In this document: one piece after another, positions 12,701 to 58,402 of the stretch
Numbering within the stretch: position 1 is the first letter of the stretch
Layout of the letters: every line of letters begins with the position of its first letter
Assembly: GCF_026151205.1 (NCBI RefSeq)
Contig: NC_087074.1
Location: 16,503,962 to 16,567,961, forward strand
Direction: 5' to 3'
Origin: Bolinopsis microptera
Taxonomy: Eukaryota > Ctenophora > Tentaculata > Lobata > Bolinopsidae
Length of the DNA stretch: 64,000 bases
Program-made: the position numbers and the translations under genes
The notes under the pieces: generated by a model
Databases searched by the model: none
Told to the model about the DNA's origin: nothing
The model's input: only the letters and a program-made list of their open reading frames with translations

Positions 12701-15700
12701 GCTTAAAAGTTTATGACACAAATTATGCCATATTATAATATATTATGCACATGTTCAAAAGTTTATGTCACAGTCATTACTCACTTAACTACAATAATTG
12801 TAACTAGGAAAAAACTTGACTCACGTTGCGACCTTATATATTTTTCCATTAACTTATTTTTGTAAAAAAGGATAAGATGGTTAGAAGTGGTAGGAATTGA
12901 GGATGGGTATAGTAGGTAGGTAGGTTTTTCGTGGTGTCACAAAGCAAAACATGGGTAACTCGGTAATCTGCCGATGCACATCTGGGGCACACCTGGGGCA
13001 CACCTGGGGCACAAACTCGGGCACACCTGGGGCACATCTCGGGCACACCTCGGGCACAAAGCACACCTCGGGCACACCTCGGGCAGAACCACCTGGGGCA
13101 CACCTCGGGCACACCTCGGGCACATCTCGGGCACATCTCGGGCAAAATTCGGGCATGGTAATTGGGAAACCTTGGGAAAAGAACCTGGGCATATCTCGGG
13201 CATATCTCGGGCACATCTCGGGCACATCTCGGGCACACCTCGGGCAGAACCACCTGGGGCACACCTGGGGCACATCTTAGGCACATCTCGGGCAAAACCA
13301 CCTGGGGCACGGTCATTCGGGCAATGAATTATGGCTGGGGTACTAACCTCAATGATATCATTTATTACCTACTTATATTTGCGATAGTATTATACTAGTA
13401 TTATACTATCGCAATAATATATATGAGCAATATAATTTTCAGAGACACATATCTAATATCTATTTATTAACGAACAAGTGAAAAACACGATTGAATTGTC
13501 CATAACTGTACATAATAATTTCATTAAACTGTAAGCAATATATTACATAATCAATCGGTATATTTACAAAACTATTAAACACATTCTAATCAAAAATTCT
13601 ACGCATCAACTGCGGGAGCTCCTGGTTAAAATATCTTCTGACGGAAGGGCCGGAGCGGGTCAGGTGGTTCCTTCTCAGCCAGATAAATTCAGCGAGGGCG
13701 ATGTAGAGGGCTGAGGAGTCTCTTCGCGTCCTGCCGTGTCCTCGTAGCATGTGCCTCTTGGCGTGAAACCACATGCCCTCACATGTATTCGTATGAACAC
13801 CGGTGACGGGGTCGACGAAGCCTCTGCTGTGGTTTACGACCAAGTGGGTGTAGCCGTGGTGTCGGAGGGCGTTGTACCCCTTCCACTTGTCGGTAAGGAT
13901 GATGGTCCCAGGAGCGACGTGTTGCTTGATTAGACGAAGAAGAGTGTGGTGGTTCCGTTTGTTGTCTGTGCACTCCACCAAGAAGCATTCGCCGGTAGTT
14001 CTGCAGTAGCCTCCAACGATCCACTTCCCGATCACTCGTCGTCCACGGTGGTACTTCCGTTTGCCGAACTTCGACTCGTCGATCTCCACGATGTGCCCGC
14101 GTCCTCCAATCTTCCTCGTTGCTCCGTTCTCGAGAAGGTCCTCCACCATACACTGTCGAATAGCTTTGTAAAGGGATCGCACTGTTTTCTCGTTCATCGA
14201 CAGGATTCTGGCTGCATCAGCAACGCTGGTACCGTTGACGAAGATCCAAAGTAGGTGGAGGAAGTTGATAAAGGTAATGTTGCGGTTGTAGAGGACACTT
14301 CCTGCTCTGACAGAGAGGTGGTGCTGACCGCCAGGACAGGACCAACAGTAGCCATCGCTGTACTTTGTGGAGGCGCAGGATCGTAGCTCCATGTAGGTGT
14401 GGCACTCTGGACAGAAATGGTTAGGACGTAGGAGTTCCACATCGAGGCAGTACTGTAGAGCTGTGGCTTCTGAAGAGAGGACTCCAGTTCTTCTGAGATC
14501 TTCGTAGGAGAGGAAAGTGAGAGCCATATCGAATGATAGTATTAGCTGTTTGCTCATGTTTATATATCTCGACTGGAATTTTGACTGCTTGCTGGGACGT
14601 CACAGAAGAGTACCTTATATTTGTCACGATCGCAAGACTTTGTTGTTCTTCTTATCGCGTCACATAACTAGATCAAACATTCCGATTACCACCGAACAGT
14701 TGATGAGGCGAAGGCATTTTGATTTCTTGCCATAGCGTCACGTGAGAGGGGCTGCGAATACTCACCACGTGATCCATGTTATCGTGTTATGGCTACCATC
14801 TTGTAACTTGTTGGGCCATGCGATCCATGCGATCAATGCGATCCGAACCGTGAATTAACAAGCTCTGATCCCGAAACCCTCGGGTATAAAGGTTGTTATC
14901 ACATAGGTTCCTCATTCCAGTTTTCGTTCTACTACCACAACATATCTACTACTACTCATCATGCCTACACGATCCGGACTTCGACTATCCCGACCTATTC
15001 CTCCCCCAACTTGCAGTCATTGTGGCGCACGAGGTCACATCAACACAGTGTGTCCACGATCCTCCTACTCTCCTGTTATCCCAGCCCTCACCTGCCCCCA
15101 CTGCATCCGAACAGTCAGAAGTGGACAGAGTAACGAGCCAGACGGTACGCAGATAGTGGTTACGATAGACCCCTGCGATACACACTCCTCTCCTGTCGTC
15201 AGACCGTCTCCCCCTCACACCCCTGCTGCTCCTACAGCACCTGTGGTTCTTCCTCCTCCTCCCCCTCGACCTGTCGTTCCGGTAACCTCAGCACATGTTC
15301 CAGTTCCCGCTCCCGCTCCGGCTCCGGTTACTGTACCAGCTCCGGCTACTGTTCCTGCTGCTGTTCCGGCTGCCGCTCCTGTTCCGGCTCCCGCTACAGC
15401 TCCCACCGGTCCTGTTCCGGCCCATTTTCCTGGTTCGAGCCGCACCTTCACCATCGACGGAGAAGTTTCAAAGTACGACAGGATCCTGGCACGTGTCCGG
15501 AATGGTGCTACGAAGAAGGAGGCACTCGCTGCAGAGGGGATATCTGAGTCCTTTTTCGGCAGGAAGCGCTGCATAGCAGAGGCAGCGAGGATTGACCTAC
15601 CTTCTCTCCGACATGGACTCCTCCAGCTGATAAATCCCACGCTTAAAAACCTTCTACCAGTGGCCAGGGATATCTGCAACCGGAACCAAACTGTGCTTCG

Positions 15701-18700
15701 CACACTCCACGCTTCAGGAGAAGCACTCCCTCCCAAGAGGATATACTGATTTATTTTGTAGTTACAGTAATACTTATAGTTTTTAATGGTTATGAGATGT
15801 TCCGATTGATACTTTAATAATATAATATTGCTTACCTATTACATTTATTAGATACATTACGAACAGATCAATCGTATTTTTCAATTGCTCGTTAATAAAT
15901 ACATTTTTTTAATAATAAAATTGTGTCCCTGAAAATTATATTGCTCATACATATAGTTTAATACTGTCACCAATATAAGTAATATAAATAATGATATCTA
16001 TCATCATAGTAATAAATAATAATTCATATTGCCTGAATGACCGTGCCCCAGGTGTTTTTGCCCGAGATGTGCCCGAGATGTGCCCCAGGTGTGCCTGAGA
16101 TGTGCCCCAGGTGTGCCCGAGGTGGTTCTGCCCGAGATATGCCCGAGGTGTGCCTGAGGTGTGCCCGAGATGTGCCCAGGTTCTTTTCCCAAGGTTTCCC
16201 AATTACCATGCCCGAATTTTGCCCGAGATGTGCCCGAGGTGTGCCCGAGGTGTGCCCCAGGTGGTTCTGCCCGAGGTGTGCCCGAGGTGTGCTTTGTGCC
16301 CGAGGTGTGCCCGAGATGTGCCCCAGGTGTGCCCGAGTTTGTGCCCCAGGTGTGCCCCAGGTGTGCCCCAGATGTGCATCGGCAGATTACCGAGTTACCA
16401 AAACATGCATTAACCTCCGCATACGTTATTTTAATGCATATTCTCCGCGCGCAGAGCAGTTATGGTGTAGTCGCCATGGTTACCCTCCTGCCTCCGCATA
16501 CGTTTGCACGATTTGACGATTGATTGAATTACACTTTCAAATGCGCGGCGCCAAGCATACAACTTGAATTCTATGGTAATTGATTCGAATAACAAGCGAT
16601 TTCCCGGATTTTATACATGTGTTAAGTAATTCAAGCTTTTCTTTACTTGATCATTGATCATGATGCGGTACAACATACTAACTTCTCATTTTGTTGTGAG
16701 TGCTTGGTGCGACCACCGACTTGGCTCCCGATAATGATATTAGTAATCCGTTATATTGTTGAACAAATTATGATGCTGATATTATGTTGAACATGATTGT
16801 CGAGTGATTGATTTGTTATACGAAATGGACCATAAATGTTATTATGAGTTAAATTACCAACTACGGATTTCACGACTACCATTTTATTTAATCTAACAAC
16901 TTATGTAAACTTGTAAACAACCATGTAAAGATTTTAAATACTTCATGCAGGATGGATTAACTCTTTGGGATGATATTTTAGTATCGAAGTGCTAGAATAC
17001 AGTGTCATAAGTCTGCATTCACAAAATCCAAATAATATTAAGTCCAAATAATGCATGTGCAGCATTTGTGGCAATTTACAGCAGCATTAGGAACCGAACG
17101 GATATCCGGCTTTAATATCCGGTTCCGGTTCCGGTCTGGTTTCCAAGAATTTGCCCGGATATTTAACACATGGGTTACTTTAAGCACGGCTAACTGATGC
17201 TTAAGGGATTCCTTGACAGGATGACAAAAATGCGTAGCACAAAATAAGATTGTTCTATAAATAAATCAGAAAAACCCAGCTCTCACGTCGTTTTTCTAAT
17301 GGTATAATTGCATAATTTGCCTTTGTTTTAATTTTTGGTTTATGGGGAGTTATCAACGGGTTTGCTTGCCATAACAAAGCAGGAACGCTTTACGCTCATG
17401 AATAAAAAATTGTAATGTCATTGGTGCTTCGACTCCTTTCTTTGTGTTATAATTTAAACGGGTCTTCTAAACGGGTCTTTCATCTTATCTAATCAATAAA
17501 GGGACTACGGGTGGAAGATGAATAATTAAAATTCCAACAGCATCTTGTTCCCTTCATTGTGCTGATTCCGGGAAGTAATCTCTTTACGCTCTCATCATAC
17601 TGTAGAATGAGATATCGTTCATTTAAAATTGGGTAATTATAGGCCTGTCAAGGATTGCTGCCCAATTTAAAGAGCTGATCAATTGCAGCTACTTGTGCCA
17701 TATAAGGGATAACTGAGGGATAACTATCACGTGACCGCTGATCCTATTCTAAAATTGCTTTTCGCGTGCTTTTTTGGATTTGTATCTTTGTATACAAATC
17801 TCCTGGTCATGGTCCAGTTCCTGATTTTTTAAATTTTTCCTGGTCGATATCTATTTTCCTGGTAGAGTACGAACCCTGAAGGCAATTCACAGCAGCATGC
17901 TGGGTTTCAGATTGGTTTTATATTACAATATATTATAATAAATTATTACATTATATAGTGGGTCCATAGTTAAATAAGTGGCTACGCACACATATCATAT
18001 ATGATAAAGGTGTGCTGAAGGTAACGATAAGATATAAATTTCCGCAGTAAGATGGGACAAAACTCGTCTGTGAGGCTGATGACACAGTTACATTTAATTT
18101 ATCATTTCATGAGATGGTTATAATATGGTTAAGTTATTGTAACTGTATACTAGTTAGTCTATTTAGAAATTTTCTTGATATGACCTTTTTAGAAACATTG
18201 TACGTGACAAACTTGTGATTACACTTTATTTTTCCATCCTGCTCATTGTTAAGAAGACCTACTAACTACTCAGGAATCGCACTACTAAGAGCATATTATT
18301 ATAATTTGCGTTGATCCAAGCTAAACCAAAGTCATCCTTTTTAACAAGGTTTATTAGATTAATAAATTACCACGACATTATAATATAATATTATGTGCAT
18401 AAATTAGTCGTAGGCCCCGAAATATCCCATACCACTGTTTGTTTAGTCGGCCTTGGTCGGTTCTAATCAAGACTACAAACAAGTTATACTAAAAATCCCT
18501 CCAAGGTAGTAAACAACAACATGGTTATCATCAACACAGCGCCGTGGGCAGAAACAAACGGTACCACATCCTCCCAGGTGCCATTTAACCCCCCTCCACC
18601 GAAAGAGCTGGAGGGTAAGGTAGTAGATGAGCAATTGTTCCAGTTTCAGGACCTGGCAAGTGAGTATTACCAGGTTCTCCGTCAGAAGAACCGACCTCGC

Positions 18701-21700
18701 TGGTGTAGAATTCTGTGGGCTATTGTGGTGGCGGGTCTGTTCGTCATGACAGCCTACTTGATCTTCTCGTTAATACGAGATTACCTCAGATACGAGTCCT
18801 ATAACCAATCCTCAACGGAGTGGATGAACAAGGTAACTCTACCAGCGATCACTATCTGCAGCTCTAACTTCATAGACTACACCAAGATGAGGGAAAGCCT
18901 GAAGGAAGCGGAACCAGAGGTGCTCAAACAGTTTGAAGATGCCATGGAACTGCTGGAGAGGTTTGACGGAGTTACCAATGTTCTGGATGATATTGACATG
19001 ACTAAACTTGAAGCTCTGGCGGAATACGAGCGGGAGCGCGGTTCTCTGATCCTCCAGTTTGCTCTGGATGTGACCAGCATGATAATAGGAACACCCCACT
19101 ACTACTTCCAGCAAATAGGACGGAATGTAACAGACCCTAAAGCTATGATAACTGCAACTCAGATGGGACTTTGTCTGGATATAAACAATGATGGAGCTCT
19201 ACAGCAGTCAGTGGGGGGAGCCAGAGGAGGGTTTACTATAGACCTCAACACCAACCTGGAGAACTACCTCCCGACTACTTCATCTCACGGCTTCATCCTC
19301 TTCATCCGGGATCAAAAGGAAGTGTTGATGCTAGATAACGGAGGATATGTGGTCGCCCCGGGAACGGAGACTTCAGTTAAACTAAAGTCCAGGTATGTGA
19401 CGAGACTGGGTCCCCCTCACGGTACGTGTATTGATGTGGAGAGTAGGTTCGGAAAGACTGGGTCACACTTCGAGTCGGTACAGGAATGTCAGGAGAGACA
19501 GGCTATACACGCCATGATTAGGAGGTGTGGCTGCATTCCTCAGTTCTTCGCTGCCACAATGTGGTTTTCAGGCAATATCGATATTTTGGATGAGGCATTG
19601 GAGCTTATAAAAGTTGGAAGGACTGAGCATAATACTCACCCTCTGTTCCAGAATTATGATCCAGATGAGGACACATCAGAACACAGACCAAAGAGAGCCT
19701 CAATGAAAAGCGATGTCCACATCTCAGATGACGAGTTTGTCGGCTACACAATGTCACCCTACTTCAAGCAATCCTGCGGGATAATCCAACAGCCAGCCTG
19801 TGAAGTACTCGTACAAAACATGATCACTAAAGGAGAGATCCAGTTCTCCACATGCCCGGAACCCTGTGAGTACCACGAGTGGGAGGGAGCAGTTGCCTCC
19901 TCTCCTTTCCCGCCAACAAACCAGTACTTCGAGAAGTTCCTGAAGAGCGGGAAACTGCAGACATTTGAACAGGCTAGGGAGAGTGTTACCAGGCTGCACG
20001 TGTACTATGATGAGATCAGGGTTATTAATGAGCATCAGATCAAGTCGTATGAGCCCCAGAACTTAGTGGCTGAGTTTGGAGGAACTGTGGATTTGTTTAT
20101 AGGATTCTCCTTCTTCACCATTGTGCAGCTCATTGAAATTGGGGTGGCTTCATGCTATTTCAGATTTAAACATTATAGGAATAAGTAGGAGGTTGAGTTT
20201 AAAGTTTGAGTAAGTTCATTGCAACAATCGTCATAGCAACAATCGTCATAGCAACAATCGTCATAGCAACAATCGTCATAACAACAATCGCCATAGACTA
20301 ATAGGGTTGAAATGAGTAGGAACTATTAGAGGGTTGTAATGAGTAGGAACTATTAGAGGGTTGTAATGAGTAGGAACTATTAGAGGGTTGTAATTAGTAG
20401 GAACTATTAGAGGGTTGAAATGAGTAGGAACTATTAGAGGGTTGTAATTAGTAGGAACTATTAGAGGGTTGTAATTAGTAGGAACTATTAGAGGGTTGTA
20501 ATTAGTAGGAAATATTAGAGGGTTGTAATGAGTAGGAACTATTAGAGGGTTGTAATGAGTAGGAACTATTAGAGGGTTGTAATTAGTAGGAACTATTAGA
20601 GGGTTGTAATTAGTAGGAACTATTAGGGGGTTATAATTAGTAGGAACTATTAGAGGGTTATAATTAGTAGGAACTATTAGAGGGTTGTAATTAGTAGGAA
20701 CTATTAGAGGGTTGTAATGAGTAGGAACTATTAGAGGGTTGTAATGAGTAGGAACTATTAGAGGGTTGTAATGAGTAGGAACTATTAGAGGGTTGTAATT
20801 AGTAGGAACTATTAGAGGGTTGTAATTAGTAGGAACTATTAGAGGGTTATAATTAGTAGGAACTATTAGAGGGTTATAATTAGTAGGAACTATTAGAGGG
20901 TTGTAATTAGTAGGAACTATTAGAGGGTTGTAATGAGTAGGAACTATTAGAGGGTTGTAATGAGTAGGAACTATTAGAGGGTTGTAATGAGTAGGAACTA
21001 TTAGAGGGTTGTAATTAGTAGGAACTATTAGAGGGTTGTAATTAGTAGGAACTATTAGAGGGTTATAATTAGTAGGAACTATTAGAGGGTTATAATTAGT
21101 AGGAACTATTAGAGGGTTGTAATTAGTAGGAACTATTAGAGGGTTGTAATGAGTAGGAACTATTAGAGGGTTGTAATGAGTAGGAACTATTAGAGGGTTG
21201 TAATTAGTATGGCTCTTTTGAGCTTTAGACCATTTGATAAAATTATACGGCCAATGTGAAACGTTAAACAGATAAACCGTGTAAAAATGTTTTTAAAAAA
21301 TTTTAATTTATTAAAAAATCTATTGTTTTAAAATCAACAAATTGGGCCGATTTTATGAAAGTTGAATGATTATTGATTACATTACATAACTGCATTATGT
21401 TTTAACTTTTATCACACTATAAATTATAACAGAAAACCCGGAATTTAACTTGTATACTGTTCTAACCTCAGGTACAGGTGTATCCTTCTCGGTATTATCA
21501 CTCGGCTCCTTTAACCTCCTCCTAATCAGGATCAGCTCATCCTTCTCTTTTATCAACTCCTCTTGTAACGTCTTCTCTCCGTCCAGTGAACGTCCTTGAA
21601 ATTATATATATATTGTTTGTCGTCGCCGCAATTTTTACATTCAGATCTAATAGATTAGGAAGATATTGAACATATACTGGTCAACAGGGGTTATTAGCAA

Positions 21701-22021
21701 TAAAGAGTTGTACCACCGCTGCAATGCAGTCCCAATCACCGAGACTGTAAGAAAAGCAAGGTGGACATTACTTGGCCACATTCTTCGCATGTTAGACTTA
21801 CAGTTTTATATATAATATTATATCGTGTTAAGACTTAAGATTGGCAATGTTTTATCTCAGTGTTGCAAACCTGAGATGTGAATAAGGCGGGTAGTGTCGA
21901 TAGTTTGCGGAGTGTCCAGTTTGTGCAGCACTAGCTGGTGCAGGGCAGACACCAGCTCAGTGCTGTCCAGCTCCTGCTTCACCTGGCACCCGTCCAGACT
22001 GCTAACTGTCACCTGTACCAT
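9714..22021 (-). CDS. UBAC1: UBAC1-like ubiquitin-associated protein (KPC2 subunit), six exons
   Basis: Exons on the minus strand are 22021-21871, 21594-21467, 11763-11594, 11291-11083, 10830-10705 and 9961-9714; all phases fit and the sum is exactly 344 codons. UBAC1 (KPC2) binds ubiquitinated proteins and partners the RNF123 E3 ligase in the KPC complex. In order, the protein shows an N-terminal ubiquitin-like domain (MVQVTVSSLDG ... TTRLIHISG then KDELILIRRR), a helical segment (LTRIIVTLVDCAEMLQFDR), UBA1 (VTQIVDLGFTDEQAKAALVA), UBA2 (CVRNLVEMGFPEGEVVAAL) and an STI1-like tail (TPKFLDAMRDLEE, DDPEIGPILFQLSKAI). This is the order of vertebrate UBAC1, which is about 405 residues. The roughly 9.7-kb intron 2 holds a Merlin transposon and an opposite-strand channel gene. 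The start codon lies at a LINE insertion, and the last acceptor lies in a tandem repeat. Confidence 0.9.
9931..10245 (-). repeat. UBAC1: 45-bp tandem repeat built from a UBAC1 splice acceptor and exon start
   Basis: Seven units of 45 bp begin at 9931, 9976, 10021, 10066, 10111, 10156 and 10201. On the minus strand each contains ctttaacag followed by the first bases of the last UBAC1 exon (GAGACAGACACGAGCC), so the acceptor and exon start are multiplied. 45 is divisible by three and the unit reads GDRHEPTGSNDLTLT in frame. The third unit has a C-to-A change at 10031 (plus strand) that makes TGA on the coding strand. Hence only acceptors in the units nearest the exon can give a full-length product. 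The last unit diverges. Confidence 0.9.
10350..10641 (+). mobile_element. Non-autonomous Helitron-like element, copy 1
   Basis: It begins TCTTACTATAATATATAAAG and ends GGGTTCCTGCTAG, inserted between an A and a T as Helitrons do. A second copy with the same two ends lies at 42766-43135 and is clearly similar through the shared block (ACACCACGGCATCAACTTTA and onward). There is no coding capacity. It sits in the last UBAC1 intron. Confidence 0.8.
10861..11052. repeat. G-homopolymer runs and duplicated GGATAGGTTACAGGAAGG blocks
   Basis: Runs of about 20 and about 18 G flank several copies of a short block containing ATAGGTTACAGGAAGG and ATACCCTTTTATATA. This is in the UBAC1 intron between the two UBA exons, so the transcript would carry C-runs. 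Local duplication plus slippage explains it. Confidence 0.8.
11764..12953. other. UBAC1 intron 2, 3' part; weak tRNA-like sequence, no gene
   Basis: AT-rich intronic sequence between UBAC1 exon 3 and the Merlin element. Apart from the tRNA-like segment listed separately I see no coding or structured feature. Confidence 0.5.
11834..11906 (+). ncRNA. Degenerate tRNA-like segment (possible SINE head or tRNA relic)
   Basis: It has a pol III A-box-like GTGGCAGAGTGGTAG and, about 35 bases later, a B-box-like TGATTCGAATCTC, in tRNA order and spacing. The ends do not form a good acceptor stem, so a functional tRNA is unlikely. A tRNA-derived SINE fragment or decayed tRNA gene is more plausible. Confidence 0.35.
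12954..13450. repeat. Left Merlin terminal inverted repeat with 11-bp minisatellite
   Basis: The outer end is unique for about 35 bp, then come roughly 30 short units of the type GGGCACACCTC or GGGCACATCTC, broken once by a segment containing ATTGGGAAACCTTGGGAAAA. The right TIR has the same order in inverse orientation, including that interruption, so the pair has stayed homogenised. Confidence 0.9.
13586..14557 (-). CDS. Merlin (IS1016/IS1595-type) transposase
   Basis: A single 323-residue frame with the ISXO2/IS1595-like DDE fold used by Merlin elements; it cuts and pastes the element by recognising the TIRs. Visible features are a zinc-ribbon-like region (CPEC at 49-52, CWSC at 71-74), a helix-turn-helix-like stretch around SVADAARILSMNEKTVRSLY (111-130), and the catalytic core with acidic residues in HIVEIDESKFGKRK (D160), IILTDKWKGYNAL (D223) and NTCEGMWFHAKRHM (E260). 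The frame has no interruption. It starts 403 bp from the divergent partner gene, so the two probably share a central promoter region. Confidence 0.93.
   Translation of the reverse strand: MSKQLILSFDMALTFLSYEDLRRTGVLSSEATALQYCLDVELLRPNHFCPECHTYMELRSCASTKYSDGYCWSCPGGQHHLSVRAGSVLYNRNITFINFLHLLWIFVNGTSVADAARILSMNEKTVRSLYKAIRQCMVEDLLENGATRKIGGRGHIVEIDESKFGKRKYHRGRRVIGKWIVGGYCRTTGECFLVECTDNKRNHHTLLRLIKQHVAPGTIILTDKWKGYNALRHHGYTHLVVNHSRGFVDPVTGVHTNTCEGMWFHAKRHMLRGHGRTRRDSSALYIALAEFIWLRRNHLTRSGPSVRRYFNQELPQLMRRIFD
14558..14960. promoter_or_regulatory. Divergent promoter region of the Merlin element
   Basis: This is the only sequence between the two outward-facing Merlin genes. On the plus strand GGGTATAAAGG at about 14881 is a good TATA-type box about 80 bp upstream of the ATG at 14961. 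No equally clear box is seen for the transposase. Confidence 0.45.
14961..15749 (+). CDS. Merlin accessory protein: zinc knuckle, proline/alanine-rich linker, basic C-terminal domain
   Basis: A 262-residue intact frame. Residues about 17-31 form a CCHC-like knuckle (CSHCGARGHINTVC), with a further CPHC nearby. The middle, roughly 80-155, is low-complexity Pro/Ala/Val. The C-terminal 110 residues look folded and helical, with SKYDRILARVRNGATKKEAL and GISESFFGRKR, which resembles a DNA-binding helix-turn-helix. Many Merlin elements carry only a transposase, so a second gene is notable. It may bind transposon ends or RNA, or modulate transposition. I do not recognise a named family. The proline-coding segment is GC-rich, unlike its surroundings. 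Confidence 0.7.
   Translation: MPTRSGLRLSRPIPPPTCSHCGARGHINTVCPRSSYSPVIPALTCPHCIRTVRSGQSNEPDGTQIVVTIDPCDTHSSPVVRPSPPHTPAAPTAPVVLPPPPPRPVVPVTSAHVPVPAPAPAPVTVPAPATVPAAVPAAAPVPAPATAPTGPVPAHFPGSSRTFTIDGEVSKYDRILARVRNGATKKEALAAEGISESFFGRKRCIAEAARIDLPSLRHGLLQLINPTLKNLLPVARDICNRNQTVLRTLHASGEALPPKRIY
15920..16399. repeat. Right Merlin terminal inverted repeat
   Basis: Reverse complement of the left TIR, with the same unit order and the same ATTGGGAAACCTTGGGAAAA interruption. The outermost base is 16399, followed directly by the target duplication AAAACATG. Confidence 0.9.
16408..18520. other. UBAC1 intron 2 between Merlin and the DEG/ENaC gene
   Basis: AT-rich sequence with no open frame of note. 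A short run of CCGGTTCCGGTTCCGGT near 17120 is a local repeat. The promoter and 5' UTR of the DEG/ENaC gene must lie in its last few hundred bases, but no core motif stands out. Confidence 0.5.
18521..20188 (+). CDS. DEG/ENaC-family sodium channel subunit, intronless
   Basis: One uninterrupted frame of 555 residues, the usual size for degenerin/epithelial Na+ channel/ASIC/FaNaC subunits, which form trimeric cation channels in the plasma membrane. TM1 is at about 62-86 (WAIVVAGLFVMTAYLIFSLI) and is followed by the family's VTLPAITICSSNF motif. The extracellular domain is Cys-rich (CGCIPQFF, CEVLVQN, FSTCPEPCEYHEW). TM2 near the C-terminus contains GGTVDLFIGFSFFTIVQLIE, where GFS occupies the G-x-S selectivity-filter position. 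Both termini are short and cytosolic. A charged insert of about 30 residues before the CGIIQQPACE motif is atypical. The gating stimulus cannot be read from sequence. The gene lies on the opposite strand inside a UBAC1 intron, and its lack of introns may reflect a retrocopy origin. Confidence 0.93.
   Translation: MVIINTAPWAETNGTTSSQVPFNPPPPKELEGKVVDEQLFQFQDLASEYYQVLRQKNRPRWCRILWAIVVAGLFVMTAYLIFSLIRDYLRYESYNQSSTEWMNKVTLPAITICSSNFIDYTKMRESLKEAEPEVLKQFEDAMELLERFDGVTNVLDDIDMTKLEALAEYERERGSLILQFALDVTSMIIGTPHYYFQQIGRNVTDPKAMITATQMGLCLDINNDGALQQSVGGARGGFTIDLNTNLENYLPTTSSHGFILFIRDQKEVLMLDNGGYVVAPGTETSVKLKSRYVTRLGPPHGTCIDVESRFGKTGSHFESVQECQERQAIHAMIRRCGCIPQFFAATMWFSGNIDILDEALELIKVGRTEHNTHPLFQNYDPDEDTSEHRPKRASMKSDVHISDDEFVGYTMSPYFKQSCGIIQQPACEVLVQNMITKGEIQFSTCPEPCEYHEWEGAVASSPFPPTNQYFEKFLKSGKLQTFEQARESVTRLHVYYDEIRVINEHQIKSYEPQNLVAEFGGTVDLFIGFSFFTIVQLIEIGVASCYFRFKHYRNK
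20221..20295. repeat. 15-bp tandem repeat, five copies
   Basis: The unit GCAACAATCGTCATA is repeated five times directly after the DEG/ENaC stop, and the last copy is slightly altered. It is probably in the 3' UTR. Confidence 0.9.
20305..21209. repeat. 27-bp satellite, about 34 copies, with higher-order structure
   Basis: The unit is AGTAGGAACTATTAGAGGG followed by TTGTAATG, TTGTAATT or TTATAATT. Variants recur in a fixed order of eight units in the second half, giving a 216-bp higher-order period. It lies in UBAC1 intron 2, just downstream of the DEG/ENaC gene. Confidence 0.92.
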
Positions 22022-22022
22022 G

Positions 22023-23196
22023 AATACTACATTATTATATATACTATTATAGATAGACAGAATGCTAGCTGTCACCTAAACACGCAAATGTACTGTATGA
22101 TTGATTGATTGATTGAGGAGCACTACCCAGATGCATTACTCGGCACTAACGCCTTAAAATCTTTAATTACAATCAAATATAAATATATGCACACAATGTA
22201 TAAAATATGAATAATGTATAAAATATGATTACGCTATTAGCAAATTTGAATAGTACTACTATTAAGAATTTCTAAATAACTCTTATCTCTTGACATAAAT
22301 TTAGAACAGCGACACAGGGTCTGAAGAATGCGCGGTGATATTTTTGTTTTGTAAATGACAGTGAAATTGCGCGGTAGCGATAGCATTGTAGAAAATGCTC
22401 GAAGATAGTCATATTTCGTTATGAGGTTAAAGTTTTGTTGCTCGTTATTATCAACGTATGTTGTACCAAATTATTTAAATTTCTAAAAGTACGAAATTTG
22501 AGTTGTTCCAGTCCTTGTCATCCGGGTTAAGTGCTTGTGCAGTAAGCACATGCTTGCTGACTGTAGACTTGAATGAATTTAGGAATTTGTCTTGTAGGCA
22601 AGTCGTGACATATTTTATGTCCTTGTTAATAATGTTGACTGTTTTGTTATATAACTTAGGCCCAATGTAAGAAATGCTCTTGTCTGAATTACATAAACGG
22701 TTAAATGGTACTGCAAAGAACTCAGGTTCTCTTCTAGGTGCGTTTAAGTTTGAAACAGTGAACATTTTTATAATATTTGGTGGTGCAGTGTTAGAATAAA
22801 CTTTGTGCATTAAGCATAATATACATTTAGCTATCACGTTCGGTAAAGCTAATACTTCTAGTTTATTGAAAATTTCCTTTGTGTGTGAAGGTGTACTGTT
22901 CAGATCTTTGTCATAAAAATAGCGGTGGTATTGGTTATCTGCAGCGCGAATGCCCTTTTTCTGGGCCGAGAAGACTCTTTTAACGGAGTTTAGCGATCGT
23001 GTTCCCCAAACTGTGCAGCAGTAGTACAAGTGAGACTGAACAAAGCTGTTGTATATCAACTTGAGTGCTTTGTTAGGTACAGAGCCTTTGAGTTTGTAGA
23101 GTATGCCCGCATTTCTAGATACTTTAGTGAGTAAGTATTAAGAACTAAATATTATATATAGTTTTAGGTAGTATTAAGTATTAAGTATTAAGTATA
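22023..23196 (-). mobile_element. 5'-truncated CR1/jockey-group LINE fragment inside UBAC1 exon 1
   Basis: A roughly 195-residue open frame (23059-22475), extendable upstream, matches the region after the reverse transcriptase fingers and palm of jockey/CR1-type LINEs (IYNSFVQSHLYYCCTVWGTR, then the QKKGIRAADN-type segment). The reverse transcriptase itself is missing, as expected for 5' truncation. A (CAAT)n-like tail at about 22100-22115 marks the 3' end region. The insert is bracketed by an identical 27-bp sequence at 21996-22022 and 23197-23223 that includes the UBAC1 ATG. A diverged third copy at about 22053-22075 complicates the exact 3' boundary. Confidence 0.75.
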
Positions 23197-23223
23197 AGAC
23201 TGCTAACTGTCACCTGTACCATG

Positions 23224-24209
23224 CTGCCTGCTCGGGCTCGCTTCACTTCTCTCAGCTCTCAATCGGGTACTGGGATAACTGGGGGAGGGGAGGGGTGTTA
23301 GGGATTTTAACACGTATTCAATTAGTATATTTAATTAGCTAATTGGTAAATCGTAGAACTAATTAGATTATAATTGTAATCTAAACCACTGAAACCATGA
23401 CCAGATAAACAGTAATTATCATTAGAGGGTAAGTAAGGGTGGATAATAATAGTTTACAATACCTGAACAAAGATTCTAATGTTGTGCGATGAAGTGTAGT
23501 GTGAAGGTTCTAATAGTGGGGCCCGCTGTAATCCAGATCACATGCTACTGAGGGTGGAGGATTGTAGTACTATATTGTATACTATATTATTATATGCTAC
23601 TGAGGGTGGAGGATTGTATTACTATCATTATATATACTATATTATTATATTATTACATAAAAGTTCAATATGTAGTATAACAGTGCACCAAATCCACAAT
23701 GCAATGGTGCATGGCAGTGCGTATTGGTTACTGAAGTTACTAGTAAGAAATATTGTTTAATAAATAAATTGTTCTGCAACAGCCGTAAATTATTAAGATT
23801 TTATAAAGGAAATGAGAAGTAACAGAGGTGAATCATCCAAAGAAACAATTATTCAATTATTGTAAACAGAAATATTAACAATATTTTGACAACAGAAAAA
23901 CATGAACAAATCAGAATCGAAAGTAAGTCCAAATCAAGCAAAAATCAATTTTATCACTAAGAAAATAAACATTCACAGTATTTTCAATCAACAACATTTA
24001 ACAATCCTATTTACTACGTAACCTTACCGAAAGTTTTCTCTAAATATAACCGAACAAAAAATAAACTTAATAAACTTTCACAAAACCAGCCAAGAACCTA
24101 CCAAGCGAATAATAAATGCCCAATTAAGTTCTCAATGATCTTAGTAACTAGATCTAGTAACTACTACAGATCTTAGTAAGTAATATCATGAACCTCCCAA
24201 TACATTGTC
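23224..24209. other. Intergenic between PI4KA 3' end and UBAC1 5' end
   Basis: About 1 kb with no supported gene. The part next to 23223 should hold the original UBAC1 5' UTR and promoter. An imperfect duplication around GCTACTGAGGGTGGAGGATT occurs near 23550 and 23597. Confidence 0.5.
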
Positions 24210-55396: not shown

Positions 55397-58300
55397 ACAT
55401 TCAATCATTTAACCCTAGCGCCCATAGCACCTCCAGATGGAAAGCCTCTTACCTTGAAGACGAATTAAGAAAGGAACAAGCCAAGAACCACACTGTTCCA
55501 TTAATCGCCTTTAACAGAGACATGGCTTAAGTCTTACATTGAGGATGCTCAACTTGAAATTCCGGGTTACTCTCTGTTCAGAAGTGATAGAGAAGCTAGG
55601 GTTGGAGGTGGAGTTTTACTTTATACACATGATGAACTCCCCATAACTAACGTCCAGACATATGATGATAGATACTGTCAGGCTTTGATGTGTACCAGCG
55701 AATCTGAAAAGTCGATCATTTGTGTTCTATATCGCCCACCCGAGTGTCCAGTTCCCAGTTTTAAATCATGTTTGGACTTCATTGACCAGTACATTGCCAG
55801 TGGCGATGGCGAATACCGGCTATCACTTCTTGGAGACTTTAATATTCCCCTCATTGGCTGGTCCACTAATTCTATCTTACCCGGTGGTTCCTCATGTTCA
55901 ACTTACAGTGCAGCTCTTTTACTTGACTTCATGTCTGAGAATCTATGTACTCAACATGTGCTGGAACCCACCCGACTCAGAAATGTATTAGATCTGTACA
56001 TTTCAAACTCAGAGGATCTAGTTTCTCACGTCTCTATTTCGGACACTCCACTATCAGATCACAGACGTGTAGAGATATTTTTGTCTTACAATCCTTGTTC
56101 TCCTACTCATTCAGATCCTCCGGATTTCATTGATTCTTCGTTTAGAAGCTTAGACTTTAATAAAGCAGATTTTTCATCGATCAATGACATGCTCTCATCT
56201 GTTGACTGGGCTCAACTCATCAACCTTTGCGACAAAGAGGATTTTCCAGAGCTATTCACTCTTATTACTCTACAAATCTGCCAGATTGGCTGTCCGAAGA
56301 AGATCCCTCCCAAAACCCAAACTCGCTCATCTGTGCGCATCCCCTCTCGCAGAAAACGAAAGCTTCAAACCCAGCTAGAGGCTGCAAAAATTAATCCTCA
56401 TAGCCCTCCCACACAGATTGAATCTTTGAACCGGAAACTTGCTCTCGCTCATATGGATATTCGTGATGCCATCAACCAGGATCTCCTGTACCGTGAACAG
56501 CAAGCCGTAAGCAAGGTAAAAGAAAATCCCAAGTATTTCTATAGTTACGCTAAGAAATTTTCGAAGAAGAAAAGCAACATCAGCATGCTTTTTGATGGAA
56601 ACGGTGCCATCAAATCAAATCCAAAAGATATTGCCAACCTCTTGCAGAATCAGTTCTTGTCAGTATTCAGTGATCCTTCGAAAACTCGGATCGACTCTGC
56701 TTCTTTCAGTCCCCCTCCAATCAAGCATCCTTTTACTGACGATATGCTGAATTTCTCCGTGGACGACATCATTAAGGCCATTGAAGACATCAAACCTAAT
56801 GCTGCATCAGGTCCTGACGAAATTCCAGTCACCCTTCTCAAGAACTGCAAGAAAGCCCTAGCAGAACCAATGCACATCATCTGGTCCCGCTCTTTAGTTA
56901 CTGGGGAGGTCCCTAGTTTCTATAAGTTCTCACACGTATTTCCTCTCCACAAGAAGGATAGTCGAGCCAAACCAGCTAACTACCGACCTATATCACTCAC
57001 CTCTCATGTGGTTAAAGTATACGAGAGGGTGATAAGAAAAAAGCTGGTAAACTATTTGGAGATCAACAACCTCATATGTAGTAAGCAGCACGGATTTAGA
57101 TCTGGCCGGAGTTGCCTTACTCAACTTCTCCACCATTTTGATGACGTTTTGGATTCTCTGAGCAACAATTCAGATTTTGATTCAATATACCTCGACTATG
57201 CCAAGGCTTTCGATAAAGTCGATCACAAACTCCTACTGAGAAAGCTCCAACTCTATGGAATCCATCCTAAAATCATAAAGTGGATAGAATCTTTCCTCTC
57301 AGACCGGAAACAAGCAGTTGTTGTTGACGGTCATCTGTCCATCCTTGCACTGATAATCAGCGGAGTTCCACAAGGTACTGTTTTGGGGCCGATCCTTTTC
57401 TTGATTTTTATCAATGATATCGAACATTGTATCATGCACTCTATAATTCGATGTTTTGCTGATGACACTCGCATATCCATTGCTATCAAATCGGAGCATG
57501 ACGTCAAGCTCCTCCAAGAAGATCTGCAAAATGTCATTGACTGGTCTGAAAGAAATAATATGGCCCTTCACAAAGACAAATTTGAGTACATGTGTCATAA
57601 ATTCAACCACCAATATGTACTATCTGAACTTCCATTTGTGGTTGAACACTATCAATACTCAGTTTCCAAAGACACTATACTTGAGCCAATACATCAGCTC
57701 AGGGATTTAGGCGTCATAGTGTCAAGTGATCTCTCTTGGTCCCCTCACATACGAGCCATTGCAGATAAAGCTCGCCAAAAAGCATCATGGGTTCTCAGTG
57801 TATTTCACACACGATCTCACTCCATCATGCTGACGCTATACAAATCAATGGTTCGAAGTCTGATTGAATATTGCTGTCCATTATGGCATCCCTCAAAAAT
57901 CAGCGATATCCAAGAACTGGAGAGTGTACAGAAAGCATTCACCGCCAGAATATCAGGAATGCGCGATCTCCACTACTGGGATCGCCTGGTCTATCTATCT
58001 CTGATGTCTCTTCAACGAAGGCGGGAGCGATTCATCATTCTCCATATGTGGAAAATCCTCCACGGAAAGACCAGCAATGATCTGAACGTTCTATTTGTTT
58101 CACGCCCAAGGCTTGGAAACCTTGCAGTAATTCCATCAAAACGTAGAACCAGTTCAACAGCAAACCTCACCTTGTTTGACAACTCATTTGCAGTTCAGGG
58201 ACCTAAATTGTGGAATGCAATCCCCTACCATCTGAATGTCATTCAAGATCTAGAGCACTTCAAAGATAAGCTCACAAAGTTCATGTTGTCTCTCCCTGAT

Positions 58301-58402
58301 AAGCCGCCGATCAGGGGATATACTCCTCCAAATACGAACTCTCTGCTGTGCTGGCGCAACGAGCGAGACTCTACTTCGCTATGGGGTGGTCAGAAGATGT
58401 GA
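55373..58402 (+). pseudogene. LINE ORF2: APE endonuclease and reverse transcriptase, one frameshift
   Basis: The frame begins around SSIWLLNIQSFN. At about 55511 an extra A in TTTAACAGAG breaks it, and the rest, with ETWLKSYIEDAQ, is in the next frame. Endonuclease motifs are visible in LLGDFNIPLIGW and PLSDHRRVEIF. The reverse transcriptase has NYRPISLTSHVVKVYERVI, SKQHGFRSGRSCLTQLL, DSIYLDYAKAFDKVDH, GVPQGTVLGPILFLIFINDI and CFADDTRISIAI. The tail is CR1-like (VRSLIEYCCPLWHPSK, ESVQKAFTARI). From the frameshift onward 905 residues and more are open, so decay is recent. Confidence 0.88.

Follow-up and report, generated by a model that had tools for sequence, protein, structure and literature searches.

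Near the start of UBAC1 in the ctenophore Bolinopsis microptera lies a candidate intron that, on a judgment leaning only slightly in its favor, was gained by an insertion that duplicated its own 27-bp target and was later entered by a young LINE. The window, that is, the whole stretch of 64,000 nucleotides that was analysed (contig NC_087074.1, positions 16,503,962 to 16,567,961), carries UBAC1 on its minus strand, and coordinates below are those of the window unless another contig is named. The splicing of this intron, its newness and the repair mechanism behind it are three separate matters, each of which we infer from the DNA sequence. Two steps would have been involved. In the first, about 142 bp of AT-rich, partly low-complexity DNA would have entered UBAC1 within its first coding codons, leaving a 27-bp direct duplication of a target containing AG|GT; the most likely route would be a double-strand break with widely staggered ends that was repaired with filler DNA. 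The upstream duplicate would then give the donor and the downstream duplicate the acceptor, so that a 169-nt intron could be removed and the protein left unchanged. In the second step, a 5'-truncated LINE would have entered this intron at a later time and lengthened it to 1,201 nt.

The duplicated target is the 27-mer CATGGTACAGGTGACAGTTAGCAGTCT (minus strand), which the preliminary description had already reported on both sides of the insert and which is indeed present in two exact copies, A (23223-23197) and B (22022-21996), 1,201 bp apart from start to start. Judged by the exact repeat and by the splice-site scores given below, copy A would carry the start codon, the codons for MVQ and the donor ATGGTACAG|gtgaca, and copy B the acceptor catggtacag|GTGACAG along with a second start codon. 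With up to two mismatches allowed, the 19-mer core of this sequence occurs only as copies A and B across the 264.65-Mb genome, and for a 16-mer search with up to three mismatches the number of chance matches expected within the window is 0.33. The third, diverged copy noticed earlier is also real: copy C, AGGTGACAGCTAGCA, lies at 22059-22085 (minus) and agrees with the 27-mer at 19 of 27 positions overall, at 14 of 15 in the core and at 17 of 20 in a wider frame, and not one of 2,000 dinucleotide shuffles of the spacer attained either of these last two levels. All three copies share the core of 15-20 bp in the same orientation. A chance origin of the repeat is ruled out by the 16-mer expectation, the genome search and the shuffles. 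Across donor A and acceptor B the in-register repeat measures 27 bp (10+17), compared with a mean of 3.2 and a maximum of 8 in 30 control introns. Its age is less easily read, since coding and splicing leave only about 18 of the repeated bases unconstrained; by our arithmetic the probability that all 18 remain unchanged at 0.17 substitutions per site is about 5%, so that the identity of the copies, with zero changes fitting anything up to ~0.17 substitutions/site, bounds the age weakly.

Predicted intron 1 (22013-23213, minus) has its GT-AG boundaries at the repeat and comprises 1,201 nt with the LINE and 169 nt without it; the latter is an ordinary size, as 24 of the 30 control introns are 106-276 nt long. 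Splicing from A to B would join the predicted coding part of exon 1 (23214-23222, minus; ATGGTACAG, translated as MVQ) to exon 2 (21871-22012, minus; VTVSSLDG... to LIHIS, placed by spliced alignment and translation). The predicted product, MVQVTVSSLDGCQVK..., restores MVQVTVSSLDG exactly and in frame, and in alignment its beginning corresponds to strand one of the ubiquitin fold. Read without splicing, the frame from copy A meets a stop after 13 codons; copy B by itself has a complete MVQVTVSSLDG reading frame. Exons 1-3 match the UBL_UBAC1 and ubiquitin-fold profiles, the N-terminal UBL of UBAC1 (PF23326) giving E 7.9e-6 but 26.2 bits, just under the 27-bit cut-off; a UBA domain is matched downstream (E 2.3e-8). 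Neither a second UBAC1 copy nor an empty haplotype was found in the assembly.

To score the splice sites we employed a matrix built from the 30 control introns, all from the same genome. These were obtained by spliced alignment to human EEF2, CCT1, CCT2 and UBAC1 sequences, which served as alignment guides only; an intron was kept only if both CCT references or high identity supported it, and UBAC1 intron 2 was kept as well. Donor A scores 5.1 (control donors, 0.3-10.5) and acceptor B 4.1 (control acceptors, 0.2-14.6), which places both in the weak quarter of the control sites, usable but weak, and about 6.5% of all GTs or AGs in the window score as high. From 23300 to 21996 no GT outscores donor A, which shares the top score, and among the AGs within 22105-21985 acceptor B scores highest; stronger acceptor-like AGs, up to 7.8 (at 22684), are found inside the LINE, and splicing to the spacer AGs at 22093, 22044 and 22027 would break the frame. 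The restoration of MVQVTVSSLDG by splicing between the duplicates, as it had first been proposed, is thus borne out as a prediction, with scores at the low end of the control range. Copy C contains a weak possible acceptor, tttag|GTGACAG, and was rejected as the main one: its use would keep the frame with 21 extra codons, but it scores only -2.0. The 63 nt from copy C to the splice point in copy B (22013-22075, minus) are open and in phase with UBAC1, giving a potential frame-keeping alternative acceptor.

The animal is a ctenophore whose genome has spliced-leader genes, and trans-splicing upstream of copy B is therefore a serious competing reading. A spliced leader would be attached at an AG either inside the LINE or in the stretch from there to copy B, and UBAC1 would be read from the ATG of copy B; the insert would then act as an outron, with copy A left over as a relic. 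The start codon lies within the duplicated 27-mer, so expression of UBAC1 could in this way start from copy B as well, and both the complete frame that starts there and the AGs internal to the LINE would serve such a mechanism. At least 56% of the mRNAs of Hormiphora are trans-spliced (PMC8527503). Moreover, the Bolinopsis genome has a cluster of leader-like genes on contig C13, at about 12.79-12.89 Mb (e.g. CAGTTTTAATTCTTTTCAACACTACTATATAACAAATTAATTTGAG then GTAAGATTAAG), which closely match the spliced leader published for Hormiphora and end in AATTTGAG|GT. However, the acceptors in the spacer just upstream of copy B are poor (2.8, -0.5 and -3.7), and the DNA before copy A is GC-rich, ATG-free and exon-leader-like, with better acceptors upstream of it. 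A candidate 5' leader of UBAC1 exon 1 (23223-23278, minus; 56 nt, no upstream ATG, in a region of 57% GC) is preceded there by a pyrimidine-rich AG (cccctcccctcccccag) that is a potential cis or spliced-leader acceptor; the acceptor-like AG at 23279 scores 3.3 and a stronger AG at 23463 scores 11.5. The weak acceptors on the one side and the exon-like leader on the other make the spliced-leader route the less likely one, and we would call it unlikely while leaving it an appreciable share of the probability.

More than 30 copies in the genome, compared together with their flanks, set the limits of the LINE. So defined, it is a 5'-truncated element of 1,032 bp (22098-23129, minus, sense to UBAC1) with a (CAAT)n tail. 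There are 40 matches to it in the genome, the nearest copies being 99.2-99.6% identical; the start of every long match falls on 23129 or shortly after it, and beyond the CAAT tail, where the matches stop, the DNA is unrelated. A longer genome copy encodes RVT_1 (E 1.1e-38), which identifies the element as a reverse-transcriptase LINE. Against all 11 nearest copies the UBAC1 element has private differences at just 2 sites in its 1,032 bp, and so seems to have inserted late, into a spacer that was already there. In the preliminary description a LINE of ~1.17 kb filled the space between the repeats and was credited with making both repeat and intron. Neither claim survives the true ends of the element: non-LINE DNA, unique and AT-rich, parts it from the 27-mers by 67 bp on the 5' side (23196-23130) and by 75 bp on the 3' side (22097-22023). 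In addition, no target duplications were detectable in this LINE family when the flanks of 20 relatives with mapped 5' truncation points were compared, the flank matches averaging 6.6 against 5.8 for mismatched pairs (control maximum 10) and the single match of 15 bp being a CTC microsatellite. Because the spacers intervene and the family shows no duplications beyond chance, the 27-mer is not the target duplication of the LINE, which is rejected on these grounds as the maker of the repeat. The locus does resemble introns gained when a transposon inserts at AGGT (PMC3443670), in that AGGT is present on both sides, the duplicate supplies donor and acceptor, and restoration by splicing is exact, but it differs from them in that the element stands clear of the duplicate and belongs to a family that makes none that can be detected.

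The 5' spacer (23130-23196, minus; 67 bp, 16% GC) is (TACTTAA)n-like and is placed outside the LINE by the start of the LINE copies at or after 23129; the only genome matches to it lie in another low-complexity microsatellite array of the TACTTAA type, on contig C13. The 3' spacer (22023-22097, minus; 75 bp), likewise non-LINE, contains copy C and is single copy in the genome. GC content falls from 57% ahead of the intron to 16-29% within the spacers and is back at 58% in exon 2. No source for the spacers, either as a repeat family or as a local copy, was found in the genome by a search that skips simple repeats, and their best window matches to the 5' flank and to exon 2 are no better, or barely better, than those of shuffles. 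A resemblance between the 5' spacer and the stretch of 3' spacer beyond copy C was rejected, as 63 of 1,000 shuffles aligned as well.

Tandem genomic duplication, a documented mechanism (PMC3443670; PMC4974935), could account for three same-orientation copies of a 15-20 bp core, and the use of a duplicated AGGT exon sequence for both splice sites is indeed shared with introns of that origin such as the one in the potato RdRp gene (PMC4974935; PMC3443670). Unlike those introns, the UBAC1 interval is not copied from neighboring sequence: the spacer has no match to the 5' flank or exon 2 beyond shuffles, and to place a decayed spacer beside 27 untouched bases requires uneven decay. We therefore hold this origin to be improbable. 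The earlier suggestion that the third copy leaves room for a tandem-duplication history pointed in the right direction, towards some other duplication history, but a plain tandem duplication does not fit a spacer that is no copy of its flanks. That the spacer is single copy and not copied from nearby DNA also argues against an introner. The candidate shares with introners (PMC9860276) an intron-creating insertion in an aquatic animal, but its spacers are single copy, again by a search that skips simple repeats, and no family of similar introns was found.

A single LINE insertion might also have made the whole 1,174-bp insert and the 27-bp target duplication, and hence the intron, if the 67 and 75 bp were template-switch and read-through sequence carried in by the LINE. 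The repeat does flank the insert and has the AGGT, and the LINE is both young and 5'-truncated. Nevertheless, the genome has no other copy of the 3' spacer and hence shows no source element with such a flank; in more than 30 relatives the LINE stops at the CAAT tail and gives way to unrelated flanks; the family shows no target duplications; and copy C consists of local sequence, something that read-through at a different locus would not provide. This history we regard as distinctly improbable. The poorly bounded age of the repeat would also accommodate an old intron in which one end later replaced the other by copying or conversion, so that the repeat records no intron gain, but such copying would have had to fall exactly in register with both junctions over 27 bp, where controls reach at most 8, and it is very improbable indeed.

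A two-step gain begun by break repair has counterparts in Daphnia, where the end repeats of new introns are 4-12 bp long and are attributed to staggered breaks, and where 61% of these introns have internal direct repeats (PMC4202315). The UBAC1 candidate is like the Daphnia break-repair introns (PMC4202315, PMC3443670) in its insertion into an exon, in the recurrence of the exon end at the opposite end of the intron (27 bp, compared with 8 or less in controls), in its internal repeat and in its preserved frame. The internal direct repeat is copy C, perhaps a templated piece of the filler DNA or else the trace of a second break. The candidate differs from the Daphnia introns in the length of the end repeat (27 bp vs 4-12 bp), in its occurrence in a ctenophore, in that no intron-absent allele is seen in the assembly, and in the LINE that has since inserted. 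Counting against the two-step gain are the weak splice sites, the stronger AGs within the LINE, this greater length of the repeat, its weakly bounded age, the lack of a second allele in the assembly and the failure to find a source for the spacer.

Clear cases with a readable footprint of intron birth are few, and a literature search for such a footprint in a comb jelly found no report. If relatives lack the intron, UBAC1 would provide a directly testable case of an intron gained along with a 27-bp target duplication, in a lineage that relies heavily on spliced leaders. It is conceivable, though rather unlikely, that this ctenophore intron is polymorphic or species-specific and has been caught soon after its birth; with the start codon inside the duplicate, two redundant routes, one by cis-splicing from duplicate to duplicate and one by a spliced leader that makes use of the second start codon, could have carried the gene through until the intron became established and received the LINE. 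The locus also shows how a nearby transposon can wrongly get the credit for making an intron.

Several other open frames were seen in the window. A 27-bp tandem repeat in a UBAC1 intron (20276-21292, minus) forms a 338-codon open frame of NYNPLIVPT units, each unit being a whole number of codons. On the opposite strand of what appears to be a long UBAC1 intron, a 573-codon frame (18467-20188, plus) looks by eye like a DEG/ENaC channel and would be a nested gene. Also within the apparent UBAC1 span is a frame of 337 codons (13586-14599, minus) that by eye is like an ISXO2-type transposase. Finally, a 965-codon frame (55505-58402, plus), endonuclease- and reverse-transcriptase-like by eye, seems to belong to an intact LINE of another family.
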